21,089 nucleotides of DNA from a virus. Under the pieces are notes generated by a model. It was not told the DNA's origin, searched no databases, and saw only the letters and a list, made by a program, of their open reading frames with translations. Positions within the stretch are counted from its first letter, which is position 1. Each line of letters begins with the position of its first letter. Both the position numbers and the translations under genes were made by a program. Positions 2,641 to 20,562 of the stretch are shown here, one piece after another. The stretch covers positions 1-21,089 of the IMG/VR virus record IMGVR_UViG_3300020447_000018; one strand, written 5' to 3'.

Positions 2641-2871
2641 TCATTCATCATCGGTAAAAAAGTTACCAAATGTTCCACTATCACCAGGTTGACGGTTCTC
2701 CAACTTATCAAGGAGAGAATCCATTGACTGAAGATTATCAATTTTGTTGATAAGATCTGCGATAACTCCACATACTACTGGACGTTCTTGACGTGCAGCA
2801 TATGCTAAAGCATTTCGGAGATTTGCTTCTGCTTCTTTAAGAGAAGCTTCTACTGATTGTGAGAGCGCCAT
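2641..2871 (-). CDS. Conserved-looking small hypothetical protein (76 aa)
   Basis: A 76-residue acidic, mostly helical protein: MALSQSVEASLKEAEANLRN at the start, a central helix with VIADLINKIDN, and an acidic Gly/Phe-rich tail ending FTDDE. The pattern resembles short hypothetical proteins I associate with T4-like cyanophages, but I cannot assign a function. It starts one base after the stop of the oxygenase gene at 2873, so it is probably cotranscribed with it. No strong Shine-Dalgarno is visible, which fits coupling to the upstream gene. Confidence 0.75.
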   Translation of the reverse strand: MALSQSVEASLKEAEANLRNALAYAARQERPVVCGVIADLINKIDNLQSMDSLLDKLENRQPGDSGTFGNFFTDDE

Positions 2872-2872
2872 G

Positions 2873-3586
2873 TTAATTAAGGTCTACGAAACGTTTGTAA
2901 GGTTTTTCTTTGTTTAATTGTATATCATCTTCATCGGATTCGCAACTTTTCCGCGCCCAAATATCTCGATCATCTGGATTTGGGTTGTAAAATGGACTAT
3001 TTCCATCGTGCAGGTCTGCATATTCAATCCATCCAGTAGAAACATATTTAGTACAATTATACACTGGATTTCCTCTATGCGTGTGAGTAAATTGTGCTGG
3101 CCAAATTAACAATGTTCCTGCTTTTGGTTGTACTCTAAGACCCTGCCAGAGAAACTCAGTTTCACCTTCACCTTCAGGTACATCATTAAGATAAAGCATC
3201 CAAACTAAAGAACGTGCTACATTGTCTATTGAATCAACTTCACAATGCCATACATGATAACCACCCTGCGGTTCAGTTTGTTGTACCTTGAAGAAGACTG
3301 AGGTGTAATCAAAGTGTTTAACGTGATCATATGTATAATATTTTTTCTTATACAATTCGACATAACTCATGATTATATCTGAAATGTCCCCCGCATACCC
3401 TTTTTCGGGAAAATTTTCTAAATTTATTGATATATCTCTTCTATTAGATGCTCCACCATACATTTTTTCCGAGACCATTTGATATTCTGGATCAATGGAA
3501 AGAAAAAAATCTATCACGTCATCACAAAATTCTACAGATACTGCATCATCATAAATGCCTATGAAATCTTTGTATGTTTCTTTCAT
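2873..3586 (-). CDS. 2-oxoglutarate/Fe(II)-dependent oxygenase-fold protein
   Basis: A 237-residue protein. I start it at the ATG at 3586, which forms a 4-base ATGA overlap with the stop of the two-domain oxygenase; the in-frame codon at 3595 is only a TTG. The fold signature is an iron-binding triad: an HCE motif (H114 and E116 in this numbering), a distal His in the stretch ending FTHTHRGN, and a downstream TKYVSTGW strand that could hold 2-oxoglutarate through Lys instead of the usual Arg. Members hydroxylate proteins, lipids or small molecules. The substrate here is unknown. The C-terminal 45 residues are charged and probably disordered. Confidence 0.8.
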   Translation of the reverse strand: MKETYKDFIGIYDDAVSVEFCDDVIDFFLSIDPEYQMVSEKMYGGASNRRDISINLENFPEKGYAGDISDIIMSYVELYKKKYYTYDHVKHFDYTSVFFKVQQTEPQGGYHVWHCEVDSIDNVARSLVWMLYLNDVPEGEGETEFLWQGLRVQPKAGTLLIWPAQFTHTHRGNPVYNCTKYVSTGWIEYADLHDGNSPFYNPNPDDRDIWARKSCESDEDDIQLNKEKPYKRFVDLN

Positions 3587-5061
3587 ACTAACCAAGTAAT
3601 AATTGCATATCTATTTCCTCTAGTTACAGGCATAACTTCATGAGGAAACATAAAGCTAGAGGGGAACATAATAACACTACCTTTTTTAGGTTTGAGTACT
3701 TTACTTCTATCGAAGAAAGCAAATTCACCACCCTCATAGTCATCATTCAGACAAATACTGCATGATGCAACTCTAGGATTCTCTTTGAAATGATCAGTAT
3801 GCTGAACATAAAATTGTCCTTCTCTGTACCTCAACAGTTCATACCCCGTATCTTGAGATATAGAAAGACCTTCTCTTGCACAATCTGATTCATACTTATT
3901 GATTAAAGATGCAACGCAGTTGTAGAGTTCTTTATCTAATTTTGATCTAATGTTAGGGCTTTGCTCTAAGATCTCTCTTTGAGAGATACTGATAACATCA
4001 CAGTTTCTAGCAGTATCATCTGCACCACCACCAGTCATTGCCTGACTCCATAAATCTGTCGTAACATATTCATTTAGAATATCATCACATACTCTGTCTG
4101 GTAAAGCATTTTCATAAACACGAATGAAATGATCTAATGTATGAATACCTTCTACTTTAGGTTCTGATTTTTCATCAAATGCAACGAAAACAGGTTCCTC
4201 TGGGAGAGAAACTCTTTCATTTAAGTTTGTTTCAACTTCTTCCTTCTCTTTTACTAATCTATTCAATAGACGAGATTTTTTATTTTGTATATTTTGTTTC
4301 TTCTGTTCTAATATATTCAGAATGTTACTGGGCATGTTTTCTTCCTCACTTTGTTTGTTTTCACATTTATGTTCTGGTTTGAAGTCCCAATCAATAGCTA
4401 AAAAATCTTCTTTATTCAATAGCATACCATTAAGATAACGATCAGTCAACTGTTCTGGAAATGGTTTTCCATCTCTAGGTTCATCATGAAGTGCTTTCAT
4501 AATGTCTCTTTCATCAATTAAATCAGGTGCTACTTTATCAAAGTAATAGAGACCAGCAGGACTATCAGATCTAACATAGTGCATAAAGAATTGAGAATAC
4601 CATGTACCATAGAACTCATCTCTCCAATGAGGAGCAACACAACCAAGATATAACACAGCGTCTCCTGGTTTTAATTCAAGGCATACATTTTTATTGTCTT
4701 TATTCTTGATCCAAATGGGCCATGGTTTATCACCATTTAGATGAAGAGTTGCTGATATTTCACATGAGGGTCTATCTGTATGTTTTTTTAATACGGAACC
4801 TTGTTTATATACTCTTGCGTAAGTATAAGTAGGCAAAACGGGTTCATGAATAATCTCTGAAATAATATGTGTAGAGTTACAGAGAAGTTCTAAAGCTGGT
4901 TTATAGTTGTATATACTATGCGAATTTTCTGCCTGTGGATCACCAGGAAGATTTGCATTTTCACAATCAGTTTTGAATTTTTCTGCGAGTGCTATTGCTT
5001 CATCGTGAGGAATAAATTGTTCAAGGAAAACGTAATTGTTATCAAAAAGTTCTTGCAACAT
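3583..5061 (-). CDS. Two-domain 2OG/Fe(II) oxygenase (prolyl-4-hydroxylase-like C-terminal domain)
   Basis: A 492-residue protein with two oxygenase-type domains. Domain 1 (about residues 1-180) has HTD (94-96) and a distal His in APHWRDEF (H145), but no obvious 2-oxoglutarate-binding Arg. A charged Lys/Glu-rich linker runs from about 230 to 300. Domain 2 (about 305-492) has the full set: HTD (421-423), the YEGGEFAFF strand, distal H474 and R484 in RGNRYAIITW. Domain 2 resembles the prolyl-4-hydroxylase class, where the substrate is a protein side chain; domain 1 may be divergent or act on another substrate. Such proteins are typical of T4-like cyanophages, but substrates are unknown. It follows the coiled-coil gene and overlaps the next oxygenase gene by 4 bases. 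Confidence 0.85.
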   Translation of the reverse strand: MLQELFDNNYVFLEQFIPHDEAIALAEKFKTDCENANLPGDPQAENSHSIYNYKPALELLCNSTHIISEIIHEPVLPTYTYARVYKQGSVLKKHTDRPSCEISATLHLNGDKPWPIWIKNKDNKNVCLELKPGDAVLYLGCVAPHWRDEFYGTWYSQFFMHYVRSDSPAGLYYFDKVAPDLIDERDIMKALHDEPRDGKPFPEQLTDRYLNGMLLNKEDFLAIDWDFKPEHKCENKQSEEENMPSNILNILEQKKQNIQNKKSRLLNRLVKEKEEVETNLNERVSLPEEPVFVAFDEKSEPKVEGIHTLDHFIRVYENALPDRVCDDILNEYVTTDLWSQAMTGGGADDTARNCDVISISQREILEQSPNIRSKLDKELYNCVASLINKYESDCAREGLSISQDTGYELLRYREGQFYVQHTDHFKENPRVASCSICLNDDYEGGEFAFFDRSKVLKPKKGSVIMFPSSFMFPHEVMPVTRGNRYAIITWLV

Positions 5062-5080
5062 AATAAATTAGTTTGTAAGT

Positions 5081-5088
5081 TATTTAAT
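5081..5088 (-). promoter_or_regulatory. Weak late-promoter-like octamer
   Basis: ATTAAATA on the minus strand, 19 bases before the ATG of the two-domain oxygenase, in a 28-base gap. It differs from the T4 late consensus TATAAATA and from the better AATAAATA copies in this window, so the call is weak. Confidence 0.25.
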
Positions 5089-5089
5089 A

Positions 5090-6592
5090 TCACCCTTCAT
5101 CATGCTTGAAATACTCTTCAGGCATGAATCCCTCTAGTGACTCTTGATGTGTGAATTGATTGGGTGTATCTATTAAGTAATCCTCAAGTTTTATTGTAAG
5201 TTCTTCACTCTGACGTATATCAGCAACTGTTACATTATACTTTTTACAGAAGATCTGTACTCTTCCCAGTTTGATGAAGAAGGATATTACACCTGATACT
5301 GGTATATTGTTAATATCAAAAGCAGTTGATCCCATTAAGTCAAATAAATCAAAAGGATCTGTAGTCCTCATAATTTGCTGGATTTCATTTTGCATTAAAT
5401 CAGATTCAAGCTGAACCTTTTCCGCCTGAACTCTTTCAATATGCTTCGCATCTGCTGCTTTTCTTGCCTGTTCTTCATCAAATCTTGCTTGCATAATTTC
5501 TTTTTCTTGGTCAATTATTGCCTCCACATTTCTAAGCTTCATATCAAGTTCTTGAGACTTAAGTAATACTTCCTTTTTATCATTTTCTAATTCAGTTCTA
5601 AAAGTCTGAAGAGCATCGTTTTCATATTTTATGAAATCTTCTCTTACCTTCATATCTTCTTTTGCTTTTATTACATCTCTATTGTGTTCTAATTCTAAAC
5701 GATCGCGATCTCTTTCTATAGATTCATTTTCTAATTGTATTTGTTTTCTTGATACTTCTAATTGTTCATATTCTAAAGCAATTCTTTCTGACGTAACATC
5801 TCTCTCTTTCTTAAGCGTTTCAGCTTCTTCATGAAATAGTTTGTGTTCAGCTTCTGATTGCTTTCTGTCTAATTCTTTTTGCGCAAGAAATTCTCTTCTT
5901 TGTCTATCTAGTTCTTGTCTTTCAGAATTTACTTCATCAAAAAGTTCCGTTTTCTGATCAGAAAGGTTTTTAGATAATATATTAAATTGATCCTCTAGTT
6001 GATTTTGATTTTTAATAATCGATTCTTCAACTTGTGCTAAACTTTCTGATTTTTTCTTAATATCTTCTTCAAAAAGTCTAGTTTTAGTTTGAAGTTCTTT
6101 ATCAAGTTTTACTTGTAATTCTTTTTTTGCAGAGATTTCTGCTTCAAAACGAAGTTTATTCTCTAACTCTGCTTTTTCTGATTCTAAAGCAAGTTCTCTT
6201 TGTTTAGTAATAAGAGATTCATTTTGTAATCTTCTATTTTCTTCAGCAGTTTCTCTAACCTTTTTAAGAATATTTTCTTGCTCTTCCTGTTGTCTCTGCA
6301 TTTCAGCAGCACGACTCTCCTTCGTATTACGTTCTTGCTCTTCTCTTTCCATACGAAGTTTTTCAATCTTCGGAAGTTCTGCAAAGAACTTATCAATATA
6401 TGGTTGGACCATATCAACCGTAGTAAGATCTATGTTCTGAGATGTATCAACAAATTCCAATTCACCAGAAGTTTCATCCCAGTGAATAGCATGAATATGT
6501 GAATCATCAAAAGTCCACGCATCGTCATTCAGAGACAACATTTTTTTGTCTACTGTGATATTCCTATCAGGAACAATTACTACGACTTTCAT
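5090..6592 (-). CDS. Long coiled-coil protein with small N-terminal domain (500 aa)
   Basis: Residues 1 to about 65 form a compact beta-rich domain beginning MKVVVIVPDRN and containing HIHAIHWDETSGELEF. This resembles the start of short proteins found near tail-fibre genes in phages, sometimes annotated as fibre assembly chaperones. From about 70 to 400 the sequence is almost uninterrupted Glu/Lys/Gln/Arg with heptad spacing (for example LEQ, VRETAEENRRL), predicting a very long coiled coil. The last 100 residues are a mixed globular region ending EYFKHDEG. There is no transmembrane segment. GGAG lies 10 bases before the ATG, with a late promoter octamer beyond it. A virion structural part or a fibre assembly factor both fit; no enzyme motif is visible. 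Confidence 0.75.
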   Translation of the reverse strand: MKVVVIVPDRNITVDKKMLSLNDDAWTFDDSHIHAIHWDETSGELEFVDTSQNIDLTTVDMVQPYIDKFFAELPKIEKLRMEREEQERNTKESRAAEMQRQQEEQENILKKVRETAEENRRLQNESLITKQRELALESEKAELENKLRFEAEISAKKELQVKLDKELQTKTRLFEEDIKKKSESLAQVEESIIKNQNQLEDQFNILSKNLSDQKTELFDEVNSERQELDRQRREFLAQKELDRKQSEAEHKLFHEEAETLKKERDVTSERIALEYEQLEVSRKQIQLENESIERDRDRLELEHNRDVIKAKEDMKVREDFIKYENDALQTFRTELENDKKEVLLKSQELDMKLRNVEAIIDQEKEIMQARFDEEQARKAADAKHIERVQAEKVQLESDLMQNEIQQIMRTTDPFDLFDLMGSTAFDINNIPVSGVISFFIKLGRVQIFCKKYNVTVADIRQSEELTIKLEDYLIDTPNQFTHQESLEGFMPEEYFKHDEG

Positions 6593-6616
6593 TATTGACT
6601 ATCTCCAATAGTGTTT

Positions 6617-6955
6617 TTATTTATTAGAATCGGTGATTAGTTTCTGATCAGGTGTTTCATCTGTAACTTGAACCTGATGAGATGCAGAGAACATATTTGC
6701 CGCTGCTTCAAGGATATTTATATTTGACTGGTTTGCTTTTACCATTTCATTTCTGAATGACTCAACAGCAGCACCAGTCCCTCTTTGTTGTTGAGAGTTT
6801 TCAATCAAAAGCATTGGGAGAAACTGAATAGAACATGCCCATTCATCTACTGCCTGTCCAGTATTAGGATTATGTCCCATAACATGAGTGTAAAATGCAC
6901 ACTTATGTTCTACACAATCTTTACGAATTAACGGACACCACTTGCCTGACGCCAT
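6617..6955 (-). CDS. Hypothetical protein with four-cysteine N-terminal motif (112 aa)
   Basis: A 112-residue protein starting MASGKWCPLI. Cysteines at 7, 14, 19 and 41 are spaced C-x6-C-x4-C-x21-C within the first 45 residues, together with His 17, 24 and 28, suggesting a small zinc or iron-sulphur site. The rest is helical (IQFLPMLLIENSQQQRG, NILEAAANMF) with a polar tail. I recognise the general look of small phage proteins but cannot name a function. GAGG is 6 bases before the ATG, and a TATAAT/TATAAAA stretch lies upstream at about 6973-6983. It sits between the tail-collar genes and the coiled-coil gene. Confidence 0.75.
   Translation of the reverse strand: MASGKWCPLIRKDCVEHKCAFYTHVMGHNPNTGQAVDEWACSIQFLPMLLIENSQQQRGTGAAVESFRNEMVKANQSNINILEAAANMFSASHQVQVTDETPDQKLITDSNK
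6618..6625 (-). promoter_or_regulatory. T4-type late promoter octamer
   Basis: AATAAATA on the minus strand, 25 bases before the ATG of the coiled-coil gene, matching the T4 late element TATAAATA except the first base. It overlaps the stop codon of the upstream gene. The same layout and spacing recur at 9076 and 10793. Confidence 0.6.
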
Positions 6956-6972
6956 AATTTACCTCACTTGTT

Positions 6973-6983
6973 TTTATATTATA
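6973..6983 (-). promoter_or_regulatory. Possible promoter (-10 TATAAT / late-like TATAAAA)
   Basis: The minus strand reads TATAATATAAA here, 17 bases before the ATG at 6955 and just beyond the stop of the 502-residue tail-collar gene. It could act as a -10 box or as a degenerate late element. No -35 was identified. Confidence 0.3.
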
Positions 6984-6990
6984 CATGTAT

Positions 6991-8499
6991 TTAATCAATG
7001 CTGCAAACAATAACATCAATGTATTGTACCCTTAAACTAAATCCAGAAGGAGCAGTAATCTGAGGGCTAAAGTCATCACCAGTAAATGGGTGAGTATGTG
7101 CGTCTCCACCACCAGTTAAAGATGTATTAGGAGAATTAGTATTATCACCTCTTATAGTATCTCCAGGAACAATTAAAGGTTGTGGATATGGAGAGAAATT
7201 AACGTTACTTTGTTGATATACTTGTGTTACCCGAACGGGAACATTAGTATTAGCATTTACAGTAGTATAAGTGTTTCTCTGTGCGTTAACAGTAACCGGG
7301 GTGCTGGAGGGTTGTCGAGCTGTTGATGGATTTCTAAATGGTGTTGTATTTTGAACTGGATTTGGATTAGGTTCTGGGCGTGGATTTTGTCTAGGTACTA
7401 CTAGGGGTTCTTGGAAATTGAATGCCCTGTTTTGACGGACAGTGTATTGCACACGTCGGTTCTGACGTATATTGACTTGCCCCTGAGTTTGTCCTGTGAA
7501 TGGCGCCGGTTCTCGATGCGCTCTAGCTTGAGACGAAGCTGGAAACGGATTAGGGTTTTGCCGGGATTGAGCACGATTAGTTCTCGTTGGGCTACGAACA
7601 CGTCTATTTTGTCTGAAGTAAGGTCTTCTTCTATTTCTTCTCTGCCTATGACGATCAGGTCGGCCTCCAGGTCTGACTCTTGCGGATCTATTCTGGGGAT
7701 TCTGATATGCAATCCCGCGATTTTGATGAGTCGGGCGTTGGGCTTGGGCGACCCTCTGTTGCATCCTACCTTGGTTTCTTTGTTGCTGAAACTGACCGGG
7801 TACTCTCATATTTCCCCTGACGGGATGACCTCTAGCTTGTGTCGCTTGTCGGTCCTGACCCCTATTTTGAACAGAATCACGTTGTTGATTTATCAGATGT
7901 GGCTGTTGGTATCTTTCCCGACTTATGGGATTAGTTGGTCGCTGATAAGTACCTGGGTTTTGTCTATTAACTGAGGACTGTCTGTTTTGTGGTTGTGGAT
8001 AAGCATCGGGTTGTTGATACAACAGTGGTTGTTGATAAACACTTGGTTGTTGGTATGCTCTCTGATTTGTAATTGGTAGTCTTTCTGCATATGATCTCTG
8101 CAATGTTGCTTGATATGCAGTAGGTGCAGGAGGTCCATCATCTACTTCTCTCGATCCTATTTGGTGATCGTGAGAGGCTATTTCACTAAGAGATAATGTA
8201 TGTGGTCCGACAGATCCTGCTGCAAGAGATGAAGAAACACTAGCAAATGCCTTTGGAGTGAGAGGCATTGCCGTTGTAAAGTCTGTAGTTCCAACAACTG
8301 ATCCACCAGCACCGCTAGTTACTCTAATAGCAGAACCATCTAGATCTCCAGGAGCAGAAACTTGAGTTAATTTTGTCCATCCAGTCGGTGCTGCCGCCTG
8401 ATAGAAAACCATTCTTTTACTTTGTGGAATTAAAAAGTAGAAACCTTCAATTACACTCCCATCACCAAATTCTAAACCATCTGCTTGTAAAATAGACAT
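6991..8499 (-). CDS. Tail-collar-type fibre tip protein with large Arg/Gln/Asn/Pro-rich insertion (502 aa)
   Basis: Residues 1-121 and about 451-502 match the 176-residue neighbour piece by piece. The N-terminal part has the collar signature APTGWTKL (37-44) and SHDH (109-112). The C-terminal part has GGGDAHTHPFTG (463-474) and the strand VQYIDVIVC. Paired HxH motifs recall the metal-binding HxH motifs in T4-type receptor-binding fibre tips. Between them about 330 residues (122-450) are low complexity, rich in Gln, Asn, Arg, Pro and Tyr, with four hexapeptide YQQPxx-type repeats and a strongly basic stretch around 275-310. GGAGG is 7 bases before the ATG. The likely role is a tail fibre or receptor-binding tip whose exposed loop has expanded. 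The domain call is firm; the loop's role is inference. Confidence 0.8.
   Translation of the reverse strand: MSILQADGLEFGDGSVIEGFYFLIPQSKRMVFYQAAAPTGWTKLTQVSAPGDLDGSAIRVTSGAGGSVVGTTDFTTAMPLTPKAFASVSSSLAAGSVGPHTLSLSEIASHDHQIGSREVDDGPPAPTAYQATLQRSYAERLPITNQRAYQQPSVYQQPLLYQQPDAYPQPQNRQSSVNRQNPGTYQRPTNPISRERYQQPHLINQQRDSVQNRGQDRQATQARGHPVRGNMRVPGQFQQQRNQGRMQQRVAQAQRPTHQNRGIAYQNPQNRSARVRPGGRPDRHRQRRNRRRPYFRQNRRVRSPTRTNRAQSRQNPNPFPASSQARAHREPAPFTGQTQGQVNIRQNRRVQYTVRQNRAFNFQEPLVVPRQNPRPEPNPNPVQNTTPFRNPSTARQPSSTPVTVNAQRNTYTTVNANTNVPVRVTQVYQQSNVNFSPYPQPLIVPGDTIRGDNTNSPNTSLTGGGDAHTHPFTGDDFSPQITAPSGFSLRVQYIDVIVCSID
7150..8136 (-). other. Low-complexity insertion inside tail-tip gene
   Basis: This codes for residues 122-450 of the 502-residue fibre protein and has no counterpart in the paralogue, where the same loop is about 35 residues. 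The composition is dominated by Gln, Arg, Asn and Pro, with few acidic residues. Stop codons are scarce in other frames too, so long shadow frames appear on both strands. The DNA looks richer in G and C than the flanks. Confidence 0.75.
7984..8055 (-). repeat. 18-bp tandem repeat coding YQQPxx x4
   Basis: Four in-frame hexapeptide units (YQQPSV, YQQPLL, YQQPDA, YPQPQN) at residues 149-172 of the 502-residue fibre protein. At DNA level the core is TAYCAACAACC with an exact 18-bp period; the last unit has CCA in place of the first CAA. Confidence 0.85.
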
Positions 8500-8519
8500 A
8501 TTATTTCCTCCCTTTACGA

Positions 8520-9050
8520 TTAGTTAAAACGACAAATAATCACATCAATATATTGAACAGCAAGATTTACATTTGCACTCCATGGTACTGCACTTCCTGT
8601 AAATGGGTGACTATGTGCTTGACCACCACCAGTAGAAGATGTTACTGGACCAGTAGCATTTAAGTCTCTACCAGATACTCCAGATCCAGGTTGAGGGTTA
8701 ATACCAATAGCATCACCTGCACCGTGAGCGTGAGAAGGTAATTCTGTAATACTTAGAGTATGACCACCAACTGATCCAGAAGCTGTGACTGTTCCAGTAA
8801 CAGGAACCTGACTAAATGTTGATGTAAAAGGACTACCACCAGCACCAGATGTTCCACCAGAACCAAAACCTCCGCCAGTTCCAGTAACAACTCTGAGTGC
8901 TTTATTATCATGTGTTGTTAATTTTGTCCATCCTGTTGGGGCAGACGATTCAAAGAACACAGTAACGGAATTCTGTGGAATGATATCATATCTGCTGTCT
9001 ATCTGAGTCCCATTACTGAAAACAATACCGTCAACATTTAATACAGCCAT
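8520..9050 (-). CDS. Tail-collar-domain fibre tip protein (176 aa)
   Basis: A 176-residue protein with the phage tail-collar layout: short N-terminal strands (MAVLNVDGIVFSNGTQIDS), APTGWTKL (37-44), Gly/Ser/Thr-rich loops, SHAH (106-109), HSHPFTG (146-152) and a final strand VQYIDVIICRFN. The two HxH pairs could bind metal ions, as in T4-type fibre tips. It is the compact paralogue of the next gene (6991-8499), with near-identical start, collar motif and end, so one probably arose by duplication. AGGA lies just before the ATG and two late-type octamers lie upstream. The likely role is a structural protein at the distal tail or fibre end that contacts the host. Confidence 0.8.
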   Translation of the reverse strand: MAVLNVDGIVFSNGTQIDSRYDIIPQNSVTVFFESSAPTGWTKLTTHDNKALRVVTGTGGGFGSGGTSGAGGSPFTSTFSQVPVTGTVTASGSVGGHTLSITELPSHAHGAGDAIGINPQPGSGVSGRDLNATGPVTSSTGGGQAHSHPFTGSAVPWSANVNLAVQYIDVIICRFN

Positions 9051-9075
9051 TATATCCTAAGTAGTTATTTTTTAT

Positions 9076-9083
9076 TATTTATT
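9076..9083 (-). promoter_or_regulatory. T4-type late promoter octamer
   Basis: AATAAATA on the minus strand, 25 bases before the ATG of the 176-residue collar protein, in the gap after the 9090-9743 oxygenase gene. Confidence 0.6.
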
Positions 9084-9086
9084 AGA

Positions 9087-9094
9087 TATTTATT
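9087..9094 (-). promoter_or_regulatory. Second late promoter octamer
   Basis: A second AATAAATA, 11 bases upstream of the one at 9076 and overlapping the stop codon of the upstream oxygenase gene. The two may form a tandem late promoter, or one may be incidental in this A+T-rich gap. Confidence 0.4.
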
Positions 9095-9743
9095 GAGACA
9101 TATTGAAGGAGATAGAAACTCTATCTCTTCCAGTCAGGTTTGGAGTAACATAATGAAGAAGATGTGGTGGAAAAGCAATAAATGTTCCCTCTTGTAATTC
9201 TGGGCAATGTTCCATTGCATAATCAGTTCCATTGTATGTATTAACATGAACAGATCCATCAGTTCTAACTATGCGCAATTCTCCTTGTTCCTCACCTTCG
9301 TATAAAGGATAATATAGAACTATTAGATCCGCTCCTGGATGACTATGAATAACATTATATGAATAATCATGATTCATATTTACCCATAAGTGAGCACCAC
9401 CTATATTAAAGTCACAATTACTGTTTATATTTCTCATACATTCATTAGCAAACTCCACAGCTATGTTTCCAAGATCGTAGATATTTCTGAGAGTACCCTT
9501 AAAAACTGCAGAATCTAGAGGTCTAACCTCACTCTGCCATCCACCCATATTAGATCTATTTGTGCCGGGAATATGATTTACAGAATCATAACATTCTCGA
9601 AGTATTTCATCATTATTTACGTTTGGAAAAGCTCTCCAAACTCTATCGATGAAAATATCATCATATTGAAAATCCTCCAGTTCAATTCTTTCTCTTTCTA
9701 CAGGTGCAGAACTACCATGATAATGTTCTATGTTGTAGGTCAT
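9090..9743 (-). CDS. 2OG-Fe(II) oxygenase-fold protein (PF13759-like)
   Basis: A 217-residue protein with the pattern of the family often listed as 2OG-FeII_Oxy_5: an N-terminal helical part, the strand HLWVNMN (118-124), then HSHPGAD (133-139), LYYPLYEG, FIAFPPHLLHYVTP with distal H197, and RDRVSISFN with R208. The first His pair plus D139 may supply two iron ligands, and R208 would bind 2-oxoglutarate. The start is firm: GAGGAGG is 7 bases upstream, and the ATG overlaps the preceding stop as ATGA. It is the last gene of the five-oxygenase cluster, directly before the tail-collar pair. The substrate is unknown. Confidence 0.82.
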   Translation of the reverse strand: MTYNIEHYHGSSAPVERERIELEDFQYDDIFIDRVWRAFPNVNNDEILRECYDSVNHIPGTNRSNMGGWQSEVRPLDSAVFKGTLRNIYDLGNIAVEFANECMRNINSNCDFNIGGAHLWVNMNHDYSYNVIHSHPGADLIVLYYPLYEGEEQGELRIVRTDGSVHVNTYNGTDYAMEHCPELQEGTFIAFPPHLLHYVTPNLTGRDRVSISFNMSQ

Positions 9744-10450
9744 TCATCATCCTCCTCATCTTTTTTCAAATCTTCTGGGTCATCAAAAAACATAACTTGA
9801 TTTACTCTAGTTTCGTGGAACCATCTATCATCTTCTATAGCCATTCCATGCTCATATCTATAACCATCAAATGCAACTAATCTATTATATTTTGACTTAA
9901 AAGATGCAATTCTTTTACATTCCCCAGTATGTTTAGAAATCCAAGGATCTCCATGTTCATGACCTCCTCTTCTTTCCCAAAAACCATCACAAAGTCTGTA
10001 TAGATTTGTTCCATATGAAGTGCCATCTTCACATTTATTCAGATATACTAGAGCGTTATATCCAGTATCTGTATGAGGCCACCACCAATTATTCTTGTAA
10101 TCATTATATTTTCTCGATTTCTCATCTATAAAAAATCTAGTATGATTAGTGACTACTCTTGTTCTGGTGTTGGTCGTTTGATTGAATATTTTTGATAAGG
10201 CATCATTTGGAATTTCAATTCCTTCAGAATCTAAACCATCCCACCTACGATCTTCAAAGTATTTGGTGTTTTTAGAATCCTCAAAATCATCCCATTGATC
10301 ACCCCACTTCCATAGTGGGGGAGTTTTGTTAGTTATATACTCAAAAACTAAATCTGGATACTTATAGAAATCATCCATCCAATACACTTTAGAGTCCTCA
10401 AAGTCTTCTACATGTATATTGGATAGATTGTTAATTTCCCAAATGTTCAT
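9740..10450 (-). CDS. DUF6445-like 2OG/Fe(II) oxygenase-fold protein
   Basis: A 236-residue protein with HTD (126-128) in WWWPHTDTGYNALVYLN, a GTNLYR strand, a distal His in YRYEHGM (H201) and R215 near VNQVMFF. This gives the complete His-Asp-His-Arg set of the double-stranded beta-helix oxygenases. The layout resembles DUF6445, a family of this fold with unknown substrate. The N-terminal 100 residues are Trp/Asp-rich and the C-terminus is a very acidic tail (KKDEEDDE). The stop overlaps the next gene's start by 4 bases. No Shine-Dalgarno is evident; the previous gene ends 13 bases upstream. Confidence 0.78.
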   Translation of the reverse strand: MNIWEINNLSNIHVEDFEDSKVYWMDDFYKYPDLVFEYITNKTPPLWKWGDQWDDFEDSKNTKYFEDRRWDGLDSEGIEIPNDALSKIFNQTTNTRTRVVTNHTRFFIDEKSRKYNDYKNNWWWPHTDTGYNALVYLNKCEDGTSYGTNLYRLCDGFWERRGGHEHGDPWISKHTGECKRIASFKSKYNRLVAFDGYRYEHGMAIEDDRWFHETRVNQVMFFDDPEDLKKDEEDDE

Positions 10451-10463
10451 GATATCAGTTGAA

Positions 10464-10766
10464 TTACTTTTTCTTACCTTTACCTTTTTTTTGTTTCTTG
10501 GATTTTAGATTCTTGATTGGAAAGTAGCTTTGTTTTTCTACTCTCAACTCTCGAAAGAGTTTACGGCATAATGAAAATGCATCTCTATCAGACATGTTAG
10601 AATTTACAACTGCCGAAACTTCAGACGAAAAATCAACTAAAGACTCTCTAAACTTAGACTGTTTGATGACTTCTTCCACAATGGTTTCAGAAACTGTTTC
10701 AGTTTCTGCAGCAGGAAGAGGACTACTGATAGTAACATCAACGTTACCTGTTTCTTCGATGGACAT
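10464..10766 (-). CDS. Hypothetical protein with poly-Lys tail (100 aa)
   Basis: A 100-residue protein starting MSIEETGNVD. I chose the ATG at 10766 because GGAGA lies 8 bases upstream; an extension to 10826 would run through the end of the upstream gene without a ribosome site. The N-terminal 40 residues are acidic and Thr/Ser-rich, the middle is helical (SDRDAFSLCRKLFRELR), and the end is extremely basic (KSKKQKKGKGKKK), which could bind nucleic acid or a membrane. I recognise no family. A late-type octamer lies 26 bases before the start, so it may have its own late promoter within the operon. Confidence 0.7.
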   Translation of the reverse strand: MSIEETGNVDVTISSPLPAAETETVSETIVEEVIKQSKFRESLVDFSSEVSAVVNSNMSDRDAFSLCRKLFRELRVEKQSYFPIKNLKSKKQKKGKGKKK

Positions 10767-10791
10767 AAAATAAGTCTCCAAATAGACATTT

Positions 10792-10989
10792 TTATTTATT
10801 GTACACCCGATCGATCTTTTTTTCAAGTCTTAGTATCTCACCTCTCAAGTATACTTGATTATCTTCTATTCTATCAATTCTTTCATTGATACTCTTTACC
10901 CAATCATATAATGGAACTTCCTCTTCCCATGTTAGATCTGGTTCTTCATATAATAATATATCAAATATCTTTCTCAGTTTTCTAATCAT
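10792..10989 (-). CDS. Small hypothetical coiled-coil protein (65 aa)
   Basis: A 65-residue protein starting MIRKLRKIFDILLYEEPD. The second half (INERIDRIEDNQ... ILRLEKKIDRV) has clear heptad hydrophobics and should form a short coiled coil; the middle segment TWEEEVPLYDWV is acidic and aromatic. Its start overlaps the end of the upstream oxygenase gene by 8 bases, so translation is probably coupled. Function unknown. Confidence 0.7.
   Translation of the reverse strand: MIRKLRKIFDILLYEEPDLTWEEEVPLYDWVKSINERIDRIEDNQVYLRGEILRLEKKIDRVYNK
10793..10800 (-). promoter_or_regulatory. T4-type late promoter octamer
   Basis: AATAAATA on the minus strand, 26 bases before the ATG at 10766 and overlapping the stop codon of the 65-residue gene. 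This is the same geometry as the copies at 6618 and 9076. Confidence 0.55.
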
Positions 10990-11566
10990 ACCAAAACATT
11001 TCCTCCATTTTTATTGAGGAAACACAAAATCCAAATACCCAAATAATTCTATTTGTAGATCCTCTGGTTATCGTTACTTCATGTTCAACATCAGAAACAG
11101 CATAGCAAAGTAAATCACCAGAGTCAATATCATACTCTTTTCCCTCAATTATAGTTACACCACCAGAGTCAGATTTTTGAGAAATAATATTACAATGCAC
11201 AGTATGAGTCTCTGGAATGTAAATAGGATCTATATGTTTAAAAATATATCCATCACGAATACCAATACCATTAACAATTCCATCAACAAATGATGGAGGG
11301 TGATCTTGATTCCACAGATTAAACTTAGCACGTATTCTATCTCGAATATTGTAAGCTACTTTAGGGTAGTTTATAAAGACATTCTCATCTATATGATCGA
11401 TATTATTAGCCAACCTAGTAGTAACTCTAGAACCAGGATCATCATAATCCATATTAGCACTCATATAGTAATGAGGATTCTCTCTAAAATTATTTAAAGA
11501 CCACTTATTTAATATATCAAGTTCTTTTTTTGATATAAATTCTTTTATAACTCTTACTTTTTTCAT
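10982..11566 (-). CDS. 2OG/Fe(II) oxygenase-fold protein (194 aa)
   Basis: A compact 194-residue protein with HID (111-113) in the strand FKHIDP, a turn and strand through GGVTIIEGKEY, the GDLLCY turn, distal H162 in DVEHEVT, and R173 in NRIIWVFGF. Both iron ligands and the 2-oxoglutarate Arg are present, so it is likely an active enzyme. The size is near the minimum for the fold. The start overlaps the stop of the previous oxygenase by 4 bases (ATGA). It is the third oxygenase in the run from 12943 down to 9090. The substrate cannot be inferred from sequence. Confidence 0.8.
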   Translation of the reverse strand: MKKVRVIKEFISKKELDILNKWSLNNFRENPHYYMSANMDYDDPGSRVTTRLANNIDHIDENVFINYPKVAYNIRDRIRAKFNLWNQDHPPSFVDGIVNGIGIRDGYIFKHIDPIYIPETHTVHCNIISQKSDSGGVTIIEGKEYDIDSGDLLCYAVSDVEHEVTITRGSTNRIIWVFGFCVSSIKMEEMFWYD

Positions 11567-12243
11567 TGATATCCACTAATATCGATATTAAAGGATATTG
11601 TTATCTTATCATTCTTTACCTCTGGAACATAGTGAGGTAAAGGTCCAGGAAACATAACAATATATCCTTCACTAACTTTAGACATACTTGTATCAGGACC
11701 AATTACACTGGGATCGCAATTTATATGATCAAAATCTCCTCCAGGAAAATAATTATCGGGATTATACCAGGTTGTATTTGCAGTTCCAGTATTTTCAAGA
11801 TAGTAAATTCCAGAAAAATGATGTGGAAGATGATTATGTATTTCCTGATTTCCTCCAGGTTTATACTTATTATACCACATGCTTGCTATAACTGCTGTTT
11901 TAGAAACTTCTGTTAGGTTTGCCCAACCATCATCGTCAAGGAAAAACACACATTCGTTGAAAGCCTCCCAAATAGCGTGCATTAACTCTTCGTTATTAAA
12001 CAAAATCTCACCATTAGTTTCATCAAAGTGATACGAAGAAATTAGATCAGATGCAACCCATCGATTTACAATTTTATCAGCATTTTCTTCTAGATGTTTT
12101 TCAATTTCGGGTAAAAGTGTTCTCTTAATTGTGTTATGTTTTTCCACTTTTGAATGGTATATAAACCTGGGAGGAAAATAAAAAATTCCAGTTTTGTCTT
12201 TCAAAGATTCTTTAAGCATAATACTATACTGGTATAGGACCAT
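11563..12243 (-). CDS. 2OG-Fe(II) oxygenase-fold protein (PF13759-like, 226 aa)
   Basis: The core reads MWYNKYKPGG, HNH (136-138), FSGIYYLEN, a long loop, VMFPGPLPHYVP with distal H204, and KITISFNI with K213 where Arg is usual. This is the PF13759-type layout. The ATG at 12243 overlaps the upstream gene by 20 bases; an ATG at 12219 (MLKESLKDKT) just beyond that gene's stop is an equally good start, and neither has a Shine-Dalgarno. The substitution of Lys for the 2-oxoglutarate-binding Arg may alter cofactor binding, though Lys serves this role in some branches of the fold. Confidence 0.78.
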   Translation of the reverse strand: MVLYQYSIMLKESLKDKTGIFYFPPRFIYHSKVEKHNTIKRTLLPEIEKHLEENADKIVNRWVASDLISSYHFDETNGEILFNNEELMHAIWEAFNECVFFLDDDGWANLTEVSKTAVIASMWYNKYKPGGNQEIHNHLPHHFSGIYYLENTGTANTTWYNPDNYFPGGDFDHINCDPSVIGPDTSMSKVSEGYIVMFPGPLPHYVPEVKNDKITISFNIDISGYQ

Positions 12244-12943
12244 CTGAATTACAAGGAGACATATTAAATGATAGAATTAATCTCTCTTTGTCTGATGCAT
12301 TTGGATGAGTAAAATGTACAACTGATGATGGCCAACAAAGAAGAGATCCCTCCTTTGCTTCTTCAAATTTCCAATCCGATTGACCACCAATAGCGTTAGC
12401 AATAAATGGATTCATAAAAGTAGTTGGAGTATGTTCTTTTTGATCATAATGAATATAAAGAACACAACTATATCCTATGAGTCCATGATGATGTGGGTAA
12501 TGTGCTTCATATTTTTTAGATTTTTCAAACCAAGAGTTTTGTATTGAAAAAAAGAGAGCATTCTCACAGTCTGGAGAGATTATATTTGCATATTCATCAT
12601 TAAATTGATCAGTTTGCAAGAACATTACTTCAAGAATTGCAAGTTCTTCATCTAGAATACTATTGATACTATCATTATACTGACCACCTTCACGATAATG
12701 ATAATCCGTTGAGACATCAAACGGATCACCGCCTATTATCTGATTTTCTTGCGTATTATTATATAAAGAAAGAAGTTGTTTCTTCTTATTTTCCCAATCC
12801 TTAACTTTTATATGAGCTATTGGTATCTGAAACATAGGAATAAGAATATCTTCCTCAGGATTTATCTCATATCCATGAGGAATTTCGCAATGCATTCTTC
12901 TCCTCTGCTCTTGAGGATGAGGAACTCCTTTGTTAAGACTCAT
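12224..12943 (-). CDS. 2OG-Fe(II) oxygenase-fold protein with His cluster (239 aa)
   Basis: This resembles its downstream neighbour: FFSIQNSWFE, then a His-rich HYPHHHG (148-154), GYSCVLYIHY, LLCWPSSVVHFTHP with distal H210, and RLILSFNMS with R221. This is the order of the PF13759-type fold. The N-terminal 45 residues, including QEQRRRMHCEIPHG, are extra and polar. The start forms ATGA with the stop of the 64-residue gene. It opens the run of five oxygenases. Which of the clustered histidines bind iron cannot be decided by eye. Confidence 0.78.
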   Translation of the reverse strand: MSLNKGVPHPQEQRRRMHCEIPHGYEINPEEDILIPMFQIPIAHIKVKDWENKKKQLLSLYNNTQENQIIGGDPFDVSTDYHYREGGQYNDSINSILDEELAILEVMFLQTDQFNDEYANIISPDCENALFFSIQNSWFEKSKKYEAHYPHHHGLIGYSCVLYIHYDQKEHTPTTFMNPFIANAIGGQSDWKFEEAKEGSLLCWPSSVVHFTHPNASDKERLILSFNMSPCNSDGPIPV

Positions 12944-13313: not shown

Positions 13314-16300
13314 CTAGTCAACAAAGTCAAACAATGCTGCTGCTCTGAATCTAGCACCACCGTCGTCTGAAACCAGCATAAAGAGATGTGTCTTGCCCGT
13401 TGAAAGGAGCGGAGCCTGATCTTCTGGGAACTTAACAGATGTTGGCCACGTAATTGTACCAGAAGTGTGAGTAATTTCAATAGTTACACCATATGCAACT
13501 CCACTTGGAACATTTGTGAACTCAAATGCTACGTTACCATTGACTGTTGTTGTGAAGTAATTTCCTTGAGAACAATCAACAACTGTTGTTGATCCTAGTG
13601 CAACAACATTCTGCTCAACAGGAGCAAGAATAGACAACTTATTATTAACAGTAACTATATCTGAAGTCACTGTTGGTAGTGTAGAAATACCAGTAGAGTT
13701 AATATTCGTTACTGTAGAAATACTTCCTGTGATAGAAGCATTACCAGAAGCAGTAAGATCAACTGTTGTTAGATTTCCTGCAAGTGTTACATCACTAGAG
13801 AAAGATACAGTACTACTATTATATGGGTGAGAGAACACCACATAGTTTATTCCACCAGATCTTCTATAATAAGAGACAGTATCAGCAACTTCATCGATAG
13901 CAAATGATGGAGAAAGATTTCCATTAAAGAATACACCACCACCTCTGTCTGCTCTAGATCCTACACGTAAATATCCAGTTCCTTGAACATCACCATAGGC
14001 TTCAAATCCAGCGTTGTTGTTATCTCCACTGAGGACTCTGACTGTTCTATCAGCAGCATCAGATGTACTACCAGCAGAAATACTTCCAGAGAAGTTAGCA
14101 GTTGCATTTGAGAATGTAGTCGTGTTTACTTCAGTAGCAACAACTGTACCAGAGATGGTTGCAGAGTCTGCTTCTAATCCATTGATTACCTGAATACCTT
14201 CTCTAAAGACTGCATCATCAAAGAATGTGGAAACACCTGTTGTTGCGATAAATCCACCCTGAGAGAATAATGTTTCATTAGAGACAATGTTTTCATTGAA
14301 AGTAGAAACACCACTAACAACTAGGAACTCAGGTTCAACAGCACTGGAGAAGAACGTAATTGTTCCAACTCCAGAATTAGTATCAACATCAGCAGTAATA
14401 GAAATACCAGTTCCTACAAAGTTAATGTTGGTTGCAATACCAGCGTAACTTGCACCATCAGTTGTAACTCCAACGTTTCTAGATAGAGCCAGTCCTTGAT
14501 CAGAAATAAGACCAAAATCTTCCCAAACATCATCAGATGTGTAGACCCATCCAAGAGTTGCGCCACTATCTGGTTGAGAATTAAGAACAACATCTCCAGG
14601 GTTTCCAGCAACTGTTGGTTTGGATGGAGAGTTTGTATACTTTCTAGAGATTTTATTAGATCCTTGCATAAACAAGGACTTCAATTCTACACCATCATCA
14701 GAAGAAGATGTAATCTTTTCATTGAAAATAGTTGGTCCATCAAACTCAGAAACAATATTCTTCTTAGGACCACCCTCAACCTTCAGAGATCTTGTAACTG
14801 TAATCTCAGAAGATACTTGAGCATCAAACCCTGCTTCATTTCCAGTGGTAACATCCTGACCAGTAATAGTAATGATGGGAGCATCAAATACATCTTCTCT
14901 ACCAGTTGTAGAATTGAGTTTCTTATTACCGATGAAGAAGTTACCATCACTATCCATTGCAGTGAATGCAACAACACCACCATTCTGCTTGTTAGATTGT
15001 GCAATAAAGATTTCTCTTTGATCAAGAACTCTATCTTGTCTATCAGGTAAACCTGTAGAATAATTACCAGGACCATATCCAAGATATTCAAAAGTATGCC
15101 CAGACGCACGAATGATAGAATTTCTTCTCAATTCCATTGGAATTGGTTGAATCTTTCTTACAACATCACCAGAAGCATGTGTCGATCTTACAGATCCAAG
15201 TGCTCCTCTAAAGACTGTAATTGGGTTCCCATCCACAGATTCTTTAATTCTAAAGATTTCATCATTGATCTGTAAGTAATCGCCAATTTCCAAATCATAA
15301 CTACTCAAAGATGTGATAGAAAGCGTTGTTGCATCTGCTGATGTAATAGCAGCACTTAGTTGAGCAGTTACACCACCATATTGGTCAATAAGTCTACCGC
15401 CAATGTTTTGATCAGCAAGACTGATTAAACCACCTCTAGATGTAAATCCATTTCTAAATGCTCTAATTGTTCCTAAGGCATTTGGAACTGTTGTTCCAAC
15501 TCCAACATTAACTTCAAAAGTATTCTGACCTGTAACTCGGGTAATAATGTGATCTTTATTGTAGCCAGAGTAGTTAGCACCAGCAAGTCGAACCTTGTTA
15601 TCTTCTGATAGTCCATGATTAGCCACCGAGGTAAAGCTTACAACACCCGTAATATTGTTATACGAGAGTGATGAAATACCGATCGTAGGTCCAAGGTTAT
15701 ATGCCTTAGAACTTAACAGATCAGTTACTCCAACACCAAGGGTGTTAATACCAGATATTGTCTCCATAGATTCGACAAAAATCTGGTCATCATATGTTGT
15801 TGTAATACCAGTAATTCTATACAGAGTATTGTACTGAGAATGCGAATCTGCAATATCAGTTACGAATAGTACATCACCAGTATTATCATAGATTGAATCT
15901 ACATTTACTGTAGCAGTAGTAAATCCTGTTGTAGTTGCAGTTCCAGTAACATTTAGTTTATCACCAACTGAATATCCTTGTCCGCCATCCATGACTTTAA
16001 TACCAGTCAAGGATCCAACACCATCGATAGAAACTACACAAGTAGCATTTGTTCCATAAACAGTTCCAGAAGTTCCCGTCAGGGTTGCATTATACAGAAC
16101 AGTACCACTTCCAGATCCATATCCTTGTCCAGGACTATCAATACTTAAAGAGGTAATCCTATTCAATCCATGCTCAACTTCAGTGAATAGAGTGTGAGCA
16201 ATACCAGAAGAAGGAGTAGATACAATATCAGTAATAGCTATACCAATGTTTACATCATCATATAGTTTAGTAAGAGACTCTTTCGTTATACTCCTTTGAG

Positions 16301-19300
16301 CATCGTTGACGATAACGTTACCTACTAACTGAGATTCTGCAAATGATCTTGTACCATCAGGGTCCGACTTTGGATTATCCTTGTTAATTTGAGGATAAAG
16401 GAATTGAACTGGTTGAACATATTTCTCAGCATCAAAGGGAGCAACAGTAGGATTATTAGATGCACTTAAAAGAATTAAGTGATAGATACCATCTTGCTCG
16501 TCCTTGATATACTTCTGAACTTCTTCAGAACGATAGATTACATATGTTCCAGGTAATTCGTACTTAGTGAAGTATGGAAGATTAGCATCTCTTGTATTAG
16601 GATCACTGGAGAATAATCCAGGAACAGTTGCTAATGTATATGTGAATGTCTTTTTATCAGGAATAGTTGCTACAAAGAAAACACCATTATATCCAAGATC
16701 ATCTTGACCATCAGTATTTTCAACACTCTTGATATTTCTCAATCTAACGGTATCACCGATAGTTAAATTATGTGGTAATTCAGTTGTAATCGTTGCTGTT
16801 GTTCCAACAATTTCCGCATTAGCAACAAATCTGGGATTTCTTAGTTCTGTGCTATCATTGAGAACTTTAGATGAGATACTGTAATACTTTTCATTTTCAG
16901 TATCGTTACCAGTTACACCACTAGATTCTTGAAGAACATATCCTTCAATAGGTGGTCTAGAAGTAGTGGGATTGTCCTTAGGAATAACATATCTCAGGCG
17001 ATAGATTCTATCTAAAAGACCTCTAGTATCAGGAGTTCTTGTAAAATAAGATCTAGGAGTAGCATCAGATGTTAAATTCTGAATTAAACCAAAGAGATTA
17101 TTATCGGAAGGGTTTTGGGAAACAGAGAGATACCATTGCATTCCACCCCATTGTAATGGGTGTCCAGTATCTCCAGGAGACTTATCAGATACTCTAGAAA
17201 CTACCTTAACTGTACTGGTTTCATTAGAGTAAATTGTAGCCTGCTGACCAATTAAAGCATCATTAAGAGTCTTAGCAACTTTAATTTGATTAGCAGCTAG
17301 ACCTGTTGTGATTGCATAATATAGTTGACCCGTGATCAATCCATCAGGAATGTGTCCAGTATCACTCAGTATTCTTACAGACTCACCAGTTTCAAAGGAA
17401 TGATTTTCCGTAAATGTAAATGTATTAGATGTAATTTCATTTGAGATTCCATTTGTTTTCTTAGTAACAGTAAACTCTTTCTCAAAAGAAGTTTCCGTAC
17501 CAGGCATCACAATCTTTGCAGAATATGTAGAGGTAATACCTGCATTGATAACATCAACTTTAATTACATCATCAGGTTTTGCACCAATTCTATATCCATC
17601 AATAATTTGATTTGGTTTCTCTGCTTGAACTAATTTCTCATAAAGGAAGATTGTTCCAATACCTGTGGTTTGATTTACATCAAAGGAAACAAATTCTACA
17701 TTTACATCAGCAGCAACATTTTCTTGTGGTGGAATGACGTGAGTAATATATCCAACATCATCTTTTGTGAAAGATTCTGCGCGGAATCCTCTGGATACAA
17801 GAGATTTAGCACCAAAGTTTGAGTTAGAGTTGGTGATAGAAAGATCACCACCAGTTTCTGCTAAGAAGTGAGTCGCATAACCAATAGCAAAGACAGATAC
17901 AATTTGAATAACAGAATTGTTACTTGCTTTGATGTGATAGTTTTCGTATGATGGTTTATACCTTGCTCTAGAATCACTAAACAGGTTTGCTACTGTTGTA
18001 GAATCTTGATAAGTTCCTGTGGTATCATCATACTTAAGGAAAGCATTATTATCTTTTTGCAGACCAATTCCAGTGAACTGGGCAACAACCATAGATTTAA
18101 ATCCATCGGCTTTATCCCCATCAGCGTGCATACCACAAGCACCATATACAGATCTCAGAGAGATATTAAAGATATATGGAGATGCTGAGGTAACAGTATC
18201 AGTAACGATGGTGATCTCTCCCTCTGCAATATCAGATACAGATGGTAGTGCAGTGATGGGAGAAGATGGAGCCTTATACTCAATCTCCGTAGCACTATTC
18301 TTCTCACTGACGACAAATTGTCCTGTATATCCATTTACAGATACACCAGAGACTTGAATAGGAGTATCTACATCAAGACCGTCAAGTTCTTCAGATAGAG
18401 TAACAGTAATTGTGCTGGAAGATGTTTCACCATCTCCTGCTCTAATACTAGAAATTCCGACAGAAGCACCTCTAGATCCTACAATCCTATACTCATCAAT
18501 CTTAGTTTCAATATCCAGAGGATCTTCAACAGTTTCAGGTTCAATTTCTCTACCAGAGGTAGAACCATAGACATCACCAATCTTCTGATAGTAAATATCA
18601 AGATCAGTTGTTCCAGAAGTATATTCTAGGAACTCATCATTGATATTAACTGCATTTTTACCATCGGCGTACTCAAAACAAGTAAGCTTATGGTGAGAGA
18701 AATTAGGAATAAATGTATTAACAGTGTAATCTTTGTAAGCAATCGCATTTGGATCAGCGTCAAAAATACTGAACTGCCAGAAATAGCAAGCACCAGTTAC
18801 TCTAAAGATAGCAGATCTTTCAATGTCTGTATTCTCAGGATCTGGTACATATCTTGGTCTGATCTTTGTCTTTCTTAAATCAAGACCAACAATAGAAGTA
18901 CCACGGGGAACAATAACACCACCGTAGACACTATTCAGTTTATAAAGAGTATTGTTTTCCGATAAAACATCAAAGTTAGTATTTCTGTCTAGAGGAGATA
19001 AATCTTCTGTAGTTGCTCCTGCTCTAGTAAAATATGTTCCACTAACTTCTGATGTAAGGAATCCTGGTCGGTTATCAACAATATGCTCACCAGGATACAG
19101 CAGGATTGTTGTTTTTCCAAATCTATCGTTTTCTCTTCCCTCCTGATAGGAGAACCTTGCAGCCTCCATCAGTGCTCTTTGAATAGTTTTGAAAGGTCTT
19201 GCTAAGGAGTTACCCTGGTTTTCAACGCTATCCGTAGAGTCTAAACTGGAAGGATCTACATAAAGGATCTCTCCTTTGGTATTCTTGAGAAAATTATCTA

Positions 19301-19347: not shown

Positions 19348-19355
19348 TATTTATC
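19348..19355 (-). promoter_or_regulatory. T4-type late promoter octamer
   Basis: GATAAATA on the minus strand, 31 bases before the ATG of the giant fibre gene and overlapping the stop of the Mom-like gene. Confidence 0.55.
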
Positions 19356-20143: not shown

Positions 20144-20159
20144 AAGTTTTTCTGTAAAG

Positions 20160-20241
20160 TACTTAAGAGAGGACTTGAACCTCCACGGATTTCTCCACTT
20201 GGACCTAAACCAAGCGCGTCTACCAATTCCGCCACTTAAGC
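20160..20241 (-). tRNA. tRNA-Leu (anticodon UAG)
   Basis: An 82-base cloverleaf: acceptor GCTTAAG/CTTAAGT with a G:U first pair, discriminator A, D-arm GCGGAATTGGTAGACGC, anticodon stem CTTGG/CCAAG with loop TTTAGGT, a long variable arm as in class II Leu tRNAs, and T-arm GGAGG TTCAAGT CCTCT. It reads CUA codons. CCA is not encoded. Confidence 0.93.
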
Positions 20242-20258
20242 GAGAGGACTGCTGTTTT

Positions 20259-20289
20259 GGATTGGTCATTCCACCATTCCCAGCAATCC
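20259..20289 (-). repeat. Imperfect direct repeat/hairpin, copy 1
   Basis: A 31-base unit with arms GGATTG and CAATCC and an inner GGTGGAATGACC. Its near copy is at 20306-20337. Confidence 0.6.
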
Positions 20290-20305
20290 AGTGGGAGATC
20301 GTTAT

Positions 20306-20337
20306 GGATCGGTCATTCCACCGTTCCCGATCAATCC
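20306..20337 (-). repeat. Imperfect direct repeat/hairpin, copy 2
   Basis: A 32-base unit with the same core GGTGGAATGACC as copy 1. Here GATCGG and CCGATC pair perfectly, and GGATTG/CGATCC also pairs through a G:U. Both copies contain an ATG in the core. Confidence 0.6.
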
Positions 20338-20350
20338 CTACTATAAATGA

Positions 20351-20540: not shown

Positions 20541-20562
20541 GACTCGCACTTATTTAGTGCAA

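Follow-up and report, generated by a model that had tools for sequence, protein, structure and literature searches.

Within the 21,089-nt virus record IMGVR_UViG_3300020447_000018 (IMG/VR; the whole stretch is referred to here as the window), the gene content of which is that of a T4-like cyanophage, eight 2-oxoglutarate/Fe(II) (2OG) oxygenase domains are carried by seven genes (named here by their lowest coordinate; Table 1). These form two blocks either side of a pair of tail-collar proteins (COL1, 8520-9050, and COL2, 6991-8499) and a coiled-coil protein (5090-6592), an arrangement that a first-pass annotation had described and that is confirmed here. All seven oxygenase genes lie on the minus strand, and neighbours that overlap share 4-20 bases. 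COL2 contains a long Arg/Pro-rich hexapeptide-repeat insert, and we put at about even the chance that the block is a module in which a tail-tip adhesin is encoded together with the enzymes that modify it after translation, for which the COL2 repeat would be the substrate. All eight domains are assigned to the 2OG/Fe(II) oxygenases, the N-terminal one of 3583 with weaker support, and Pro-rich repeat fibre proteins share operons with 2OG genes in at least two settings, namely the COL2 cassette and four contigs in which unrelated hexad- or octad-repeat fibre proteins accompany a 2OG pair.

The number of domains, and the description of their iron-ligand and distal-His motifs, had also been proposed in the first-pass annotation and are borne out by Pfam, by AlphaFold models compared using Foldseek, and by the conservation of the ligand motifs across orthologues. 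Five of the eight domains pass the Pfam cut-off (PF13640 in 2873 and in the C-terminus of 3583; PF13759 in 9090, 11563 and 12224). Searches of the PDB with sequence profiles of 10982 and 9740 gave no matches, and structure prediction was therefore used for these two. Both models show folds appropriate to 2OG oxygenases, the best Foldseek matches being the prolyl hydroxylases 6t8m and 4j25 and WelO5 for 10982, and OGFOD1, ABH2, PHD2 and LH3 for 9740. The double-stranded beta-helix is thus assigned from models for 10982 and 9740, from profile matches to solved members for the C-terminal domain of 3583 (3583C) and the PF13759 domains, and from Pfam for 2873. Iron triads are essentially invariant across the orthologues of all eight domains, taking the form HxD...H in four (HxD...H...R in 3583C), HxE...H in 2873 and HxH...H in the three PF13759 proteins. 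The Arg or Lys that follows the distal His and binds 2OG is conserved in seven domains; its position was not identified in the N-terminal domain of 3583. In the latter domain, H94xD96 and H145 are invariant in 82 orthologues, the hhalign match to a PF13640-type domain is weak (probability ~36%, E 6e-5, with unrelated controls at E ~0.9), and the authors of the study of the T4-like cyanophage S-SCSM1 reported a PhyH-type domain in the orthologue (PMC9602691). Because the catalytic residues are essentially invariant in all eight domains, these are predicted to be enzymes rather than relics.

The closest folds or profiles of the cassette enzymes are those of protein hydroxylases (PHD2, prolyl 4-hydroxylase, OGFOD1 and LH3). 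The 3583C profile matches solved prolyl 4-hydroxylases (5hv0, 3itq, 4j25) and PHD2 (E 1e-9), as does the fold of 10982, although the fold matches share less than 20% sequence identity. The ox5 family profile matches the solved PF13759 proteins 3bvc and 2rg4 (E 6e-14 and 4.5e-13), both of which are uncharacterised bacterial proteins.

Two collar proteins were correctly named in the first-pass annotation, which passed over the repeat insert in COL2, the likely substrate. COL2 keeps its collar ends. The 355 residues inserted between its HxH motifs at 110-112 and 468-470, both of them invariant, are rich in Arg, Pro, Gln and Asn and form some 50-60 hexads with the consensus [YF]-[RQ]-[QVN]-P-x-[STN]. 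Among 29 non-redundant COL2 inserts of 275-381 amino acids (aa), Arg accounts for 11-30% and Pro for 7-14% of residues, the net charge is +36 to +83, Cys is zero and Lys near zero. The lag-6 z is at least 3 in 28 of the 29, and in the pooled inserts reaches 30 for Pro, 26 for Tyr and 19 for Arg. Of the 1126 other distinct open reading frames (ORFs) with 150 aa or more in these loci, none shows such periodicity together with high Pro, and the COL2 of S-SCSM1 is the most hexad-periodic of 196 ORFs. Insert length is constant within clades (284 aa in eight sequences averaging 78% identity), which argues against a freely drifting linker. A collagen-like repeat was ruled out, as the period is 6 and Gly makes up only 5.0% of the inserts.

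The collar profile matches solved tail fibres (9qgo, E 4e-10; 9nxk, E 1e-7), and the paired HxH is invariant. The similarity of the collar profile to T4 gp37 and gp12 was not above that of shuffled controls, so that a comparison with the needle of gp37 is an analogy of architecture. We know of no oxygenases beside T4 gp37. In the gp37 tip the collar domain is interrupted by a receptor-binding needle with iron-binding His motifs (PMC6957217), and COL2 likewise has a long insert with HxH motifs nearby, whereas its insert is an Arg/Pro hexad repeat that is not His-rich. The length of the coiled-coil protein (5090-6592 type) rises with that of the COL2 insert (~431-448 vs 472-502 aa between the two insert clades), and loci without an insert usually have a shorter form, as though the protein were a ruler or chaperone for the needle.

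Relatives of the cassette were surveyed using custom profiles, run on 122 and then on 208 sequences, and the core COL1-COL2-6617-coil-[two-domain oxygenase] was present in nearly all loci, an adjacency that is partly ascertained because some loci were retrieved by oxygenase queries. The conserved linkage to tail-tip genes for which the first-pass annotation had suggested looking is found in S-SCSM1, where the same cassette occupies ORF240-249, and in dozens of virus contigs, in which the order ox5-(ox5)-10982-9740-ox5-COL1-COL2-6617-coil-two-domain-ox3 recurs; it is not universal (see below). Neither this gene order nor the predicted folds bear out the refuting outcomes that the first-pass annotation had named. 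All 20 insert-bearing COL2 loci have 2-6 extra oxygenase genes directly upstream of COL1, compared with 2 of the 39 insert-free loci with enough flank, and these counts were rejected as independent events after a tree of the two-domain enzyme placed the insert-bearing loci in one group, which implies one origin and long joint retention rather than 20 separate events. An apparent exception on the tree (L097) is a truncated COL2. The extra oxygenases are PF13759 proteins (two to four), the 10982 type and the 9740 type.

While a single-sequence search found no relatives of 10982, an alignment-based search recovered 45 contigs with a gene of this type. Cassette gene order is kept in 43 of these, some ending before the collars, and COL2 is long wherever it is complete; the 10982 family thus occurs almost only in this cassette. 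The two-domain enzyme is 40-50% identical across relatives, with order, overlaps and catalytic residues kept. A general linkage of 9740-type genes to collars was ruled out, the copy in S-CAM9 lying by nrdAB; in ACG-2014b, a 9740-type gene is found just before tail-fibre genes that have no hexad repeat. The collars of S-SCSM2R are situated elsewhere in the genome than the two-domain enzyme and have a 2OG neighbour of their own. In that isolate, a gene annotated as 'baseplate protein' after two collar-like proteins (L371:10226-10729) encodes a 2OG oxygenase of the PF13640 type, whose E of 3.6e-5 narrowly misses the curated cut-off.

A second setting came from a scan of IMG/VR DNA for three successive [YF][RQ]QP hexads, which recovered, besides COL2, an unrelated hexad-repeat protein. 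On one contig (L238) two 2OG genes, PF13640 (6.6e-7) and PF13759 (2.6e-18), come within 3 kb after the end of this protein. On three related contigs the proteins with Pro-rich repeats are octad-based (lag-8 z 12-21), and after them come the same 2OG pair and then neck genes. Octapeptide-repeat fibre proteins (RSPFTYxH, ARQPFIAQ) of marine phages are encoded immediately upstream of the pair and the neck genes on L366 (782-2787) and L368 (minus strand). Two further relatives (L234:7951-9330 and L239:1274-2692) encode hexad-repeat proteins (FQQPYA, RPATGT), after which comes a radical SAM/SPASM gene, the product of which is possibly another modification enzyme for the repeat fibre. The second repeat family had no match in isolate phages, and among more than 100 stretches with the YRQP triple repeat in bacterial genomes, none was accompanied by cassette families.

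According to PMC9602691, the virion-protein marks in the S-SCSM1 record derive from mass spectrometry. The COL1 homologue, SSCSM1_244, carries this mark. None of the 24 S-SCSM1 2OG proteins does, so the oxygenases are probably not virion parts, and on this annotation the idea that they serve a structural purpose in the virion was discarded.

Table 1. Features of the oxygenase and collar region of the window, with the evidence for each.
Feature	Position	Strand	Evidence
2OG oxygenase, PF13759 type, HxH...H...R	12224-12943	-	Pfam 7.1e-10; ligands in 26/26 orthologues
2OG oxygenase, PF13759 type, HxH...H...K	11563-12243	-	Pfam 1.9e-12; ligands in 11/12 orthologues, one R
2OG oxygenase, new family, HxD...H...R	10982-11566	-	AlphaFold (pLDDT, predicted local distance difference test, 95), Foldseek; ligands in 36/36 orthologues
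2OG oxygenase, phrog_1644, HxD...H...R	9740-10450	-	AlphaFold (pLDDT 90), Foldseek; ligands in 36/36 orthologues
2OG oxygenase, PF13759 type, HxH...H...R	9090-9743	-	Pfam 6.7e-11; ligands in 36/36 orthologues
COL1, short tail-collar protein without insert, 176 aa	8520-9050	-	55% identity to SSCSM1_244; 9qgo profile match
COL2, tail-collar protein with long repeat insert, 502 aa	6991-8499	-	
COL2 insert, residues 113-467, hexapeptide repeat, candidate oxygenase substrate	7099-8163	-	Lag-6 periodicity, composition
Small Cys-containing protein, core module	6617-6955	-	Kept after COL2 in nearly all loci; no Pfam match
Coiled-coil protein, core module	5090-6592	-	Conserved in relatives' loci; no Pfam match
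Two-domain 2OG oxygenase (N domain phrog_3531, C domain PF13640)	3583-5061	-	C-terminus Pfam 6e-21
2OG oxygenase, PF13640 type, HxE...H...K	2873-3595	-	Pfam 1.5e-10; ligands in 26/27 orthologues
Small conserved protein after cassette	2641-2871	-	Conserved in relatives' loci
2000-aa tail fibre gene	13314-19316		phrog_529

The proposed mechanism is as follows. COL2 would have a collar fold at both ends, with a long, needle-like hexad repeat between its HxH motifs, and the oxygenases of the same operon would most likely hydroxylate side chains of this repeat, perhaps of the collars too, late in infection and before or during virion assembly. Proline is the first candidate residue, with Arg, Asn or Gln kept as candidates in view of how many different enzymes there are. 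Hydroxylation would probably stiffen or solubilise the needle, which is strongly basic, or adjust how it binds the host surface. The first-pass annotation had suggested that the enzymes act either on virion fibre proteins or on host surface molecules; the hexad insert of COL2 and the second pairing of a repeat fibre with 2OG genes favour the fibre as the candidate substrate. A more elaborate scheme is offered tentatively, as possible but somewhat unlikely: several distinct 2OG hydroxylases would each write a different hydroxylated residue along the Arg/Pro needle of the tail tip; in sister clades the adjoining glycosyltransferases would glycosylate collar hydroxyls introduced by the core enzyme. 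Such a pathway would explain many of the orphan 2OG genes of cyanophages.

Glycosylation enters this scheme because tandem arrays of 2-6 glycosyltransferase genes come after the two-domain oxygenase in 20 of the 47 distinct loci that lack the insert, as expected if hydroxyls become glycosylated, and in none of the 24 that bear it. Glycosyltransferases (phrog_2835; some PF01755/GT25) follow the two-domain oxygenase in L054:13245-15677 and 19 other distinct loci, and in L376:6281-10781; aminotransferase and radical SAM genes are found near them in insert-free relatives. The isolate S-SCSM2R has the order 6617-coil-two-domain enzyme-glycosyltransferases, one of which is a GT25 (PF01755, 1.6e-7), together with a radical SAM gene and another oxygenase. 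GT25 enzymes also serve lipopolysaccharide synthesis, and the parallel with collagen is therefore suggestive only. The collagen-like proteins of Mimivirus, which consist of Gly-X-Y repeats, provide a comparison. Collagen is modified by hydroxylation and then glycosylation, GT25 enzymes acting on hydroxylysine, and Mimivirus encodes the repeat protein as well as prolyl/lysyl hydroxylases and collagen glycosyltransferases, as proposed here (PMC9546862). The Mimivirus enzymes are active in vitro (PMC9546862), whereas those of the window are predicted enzymes, and the repeat is a hexapeptide of a phage collar without regular Gly.

Several observations weigh against an adhesin module with dedicated hydroxylases. 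A modified residue has never been observed, and the insert-bearing loci, as noted above, form a single group on the two-domain-enzyme tree. The two-domain enzyme also occurs beside insert-free collars, and in the isolates S-T4, ACG-2014f and S-SCSM2R it lies away from collars altogether. In S-SCSM1, 17 other 2OG genes are located elsewhere, many among replication genes, and COL2 has no virion-protein mark, an absence that is ambiguous because trypsin gives usable peptides for only 29% of this protein, with its Arg-rich insert. No 2OG gene was found on the incomplete contigs L234 and L239.

It is unlikely that the oxygenases, together with the glycosyltransferases of relatives, act on a glycan made by the phage or on host-surface sugars or proteins, and adjoin the adhesin since both concern the cell surface. 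This would suit the relatives whose core module is flanked by genes for glycosyltransferases, an aminotransferase, a carbamoyltransferase and radical SAM proteins, as well as the large sugar-modification cluster of S-SCSM1, which itself contains 2OG genes, but it leaves unexplained both the co-occurrence of extra oxygenases with the repeat insert and the second repeat fibre with its 2OG pair beside neck genes, and glycosyltransferases are missing from the insert-bearing loci. Hitch-hiking, in which the fibre region is a gene-gain hot spot where oxygenases were duplicated and their neighbourhood is without functional meaning, is quite improbable. The insert and the extra oxygenases do form one clade, the position of the cassette relative to the helicase gene differs between the window (where this gene, 969-2159, is its neighbour) and S-SCSM1, and 2OG genes are described as mobile among cyanophages (PMC9602691); yet gene order, overlaps and catalytic residues have been kept over deep divergence, and separate pairings of repeat fibres with 2OG genes are not predicted.

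The 2OG genes of T4-like cyanophages, including S-SCSM1, belong to the same Pfam families as those of the window and occur as many diverse copies per genome, and are treated as host-metabolism genes in PMC9602691 and PMC3037559, whereas tail-fibre modification is proposed here. No link between these genes and the COL2 repeat or fibre modification was found in the literature available, which included few subscription journals. That the enzymes are auxiliary metabolic genes, consuming 2OG or reprogramming host metabolism and functionally unlinked to the tail genes, is the hypothesis of those publications and agrees with the many other 2OG genes scattered in cyanophage genomes. It is nevertheless decidedly unlikely, as a single 14-gene block around the collars holds seven of the 24 2OG genes of S-SCSM1 (P 2.6e-5 for a given block), and eight diverse, individually conserved active sites are unneeded for lowering 2OG. 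AlkB-type DNA repair or DNA modification, an older proposal cited in PMC3037559 and PMC9146016, is highly improbable despite the neighbouring helicase gene and the AlkB homologue ABH2 among the folds similar to 9740, as the genes belong to a tail operon, protein hydroxylases are the nearest matches of 10982 and 3583C, and no AlkB family scored above the Pfam cut-off.

Five PHROGs (phrog_3531, phrog_2954, phrog_1644, phrog_274 and phrog_2297) that appear to be 2OG oxygenase families carry the labels 'ferrochelatase', 'minor coat protein' or 'DNA endonuclease (V)', which have spread to cyanophage annotations in RefSeq. The 'ferrochelatase' label (phrog_3531/2954) of the 3583 N-terminal domain was rejected, no ferrochelatase model appearing in the Pfam matches of 37 two-domain members. 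The 'minor coat protein' label of 9740 (PHROGs, RefSeq) was also rejected, given its 2OG fold and an S-SCSM1 homologue (SSCSM1_242) without a virion mark. Pelagiphage 2OG genes described as 'adjacent to ferrochelatase' likely have the same kind of N-type domain beside PF13640 domains; they were interpreted as haem enzymes (PMC9599517), whereas the 'ferrochelatase' family is interpreted here as a 2OG domain, and that report may rest on a mislabelled 2OG family.

Elsewhere in the window, a Mom-like DNA modification protein (19351-19962; phrog_1384, 2.8e-28) is encoded upstream of the 2000-aa tail fibre gene, and four tRNA genes (Leu, Thr, Leu, Ile) lie on the minus strand at 20159-20723, the second Leu gene (20562-20648) abutting that for Ile (20649-20723). 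The 6617-6955 protein has the motif CPLxxKDCVEHKCA...WxC and is also retained beside the two-domain enzyme in S-SCSM2R, where the collars are absent from the locus.

What the 2OG oxygenases of cyanophages act on has been a standing question ever since these genes were noticed, and a concrete candidate from their own operon allows it to be put to the test. If the reading of the block as an adhesin module with its own hydroxylases is true, tailed phages would hydroxylate their own attachment proteins, the maturation of a phage adhesin would be tied to the oxygen, iron and 2OG of the host, and the 'ferrochelatase', 'minor coat protein' and 'DNA endonuclease' annotations in databases would be corrected. 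A multi-hydroxylase adhesin pathway, if it exists, would be a phage counterpart of the maturation of collagen or of plant extensin.

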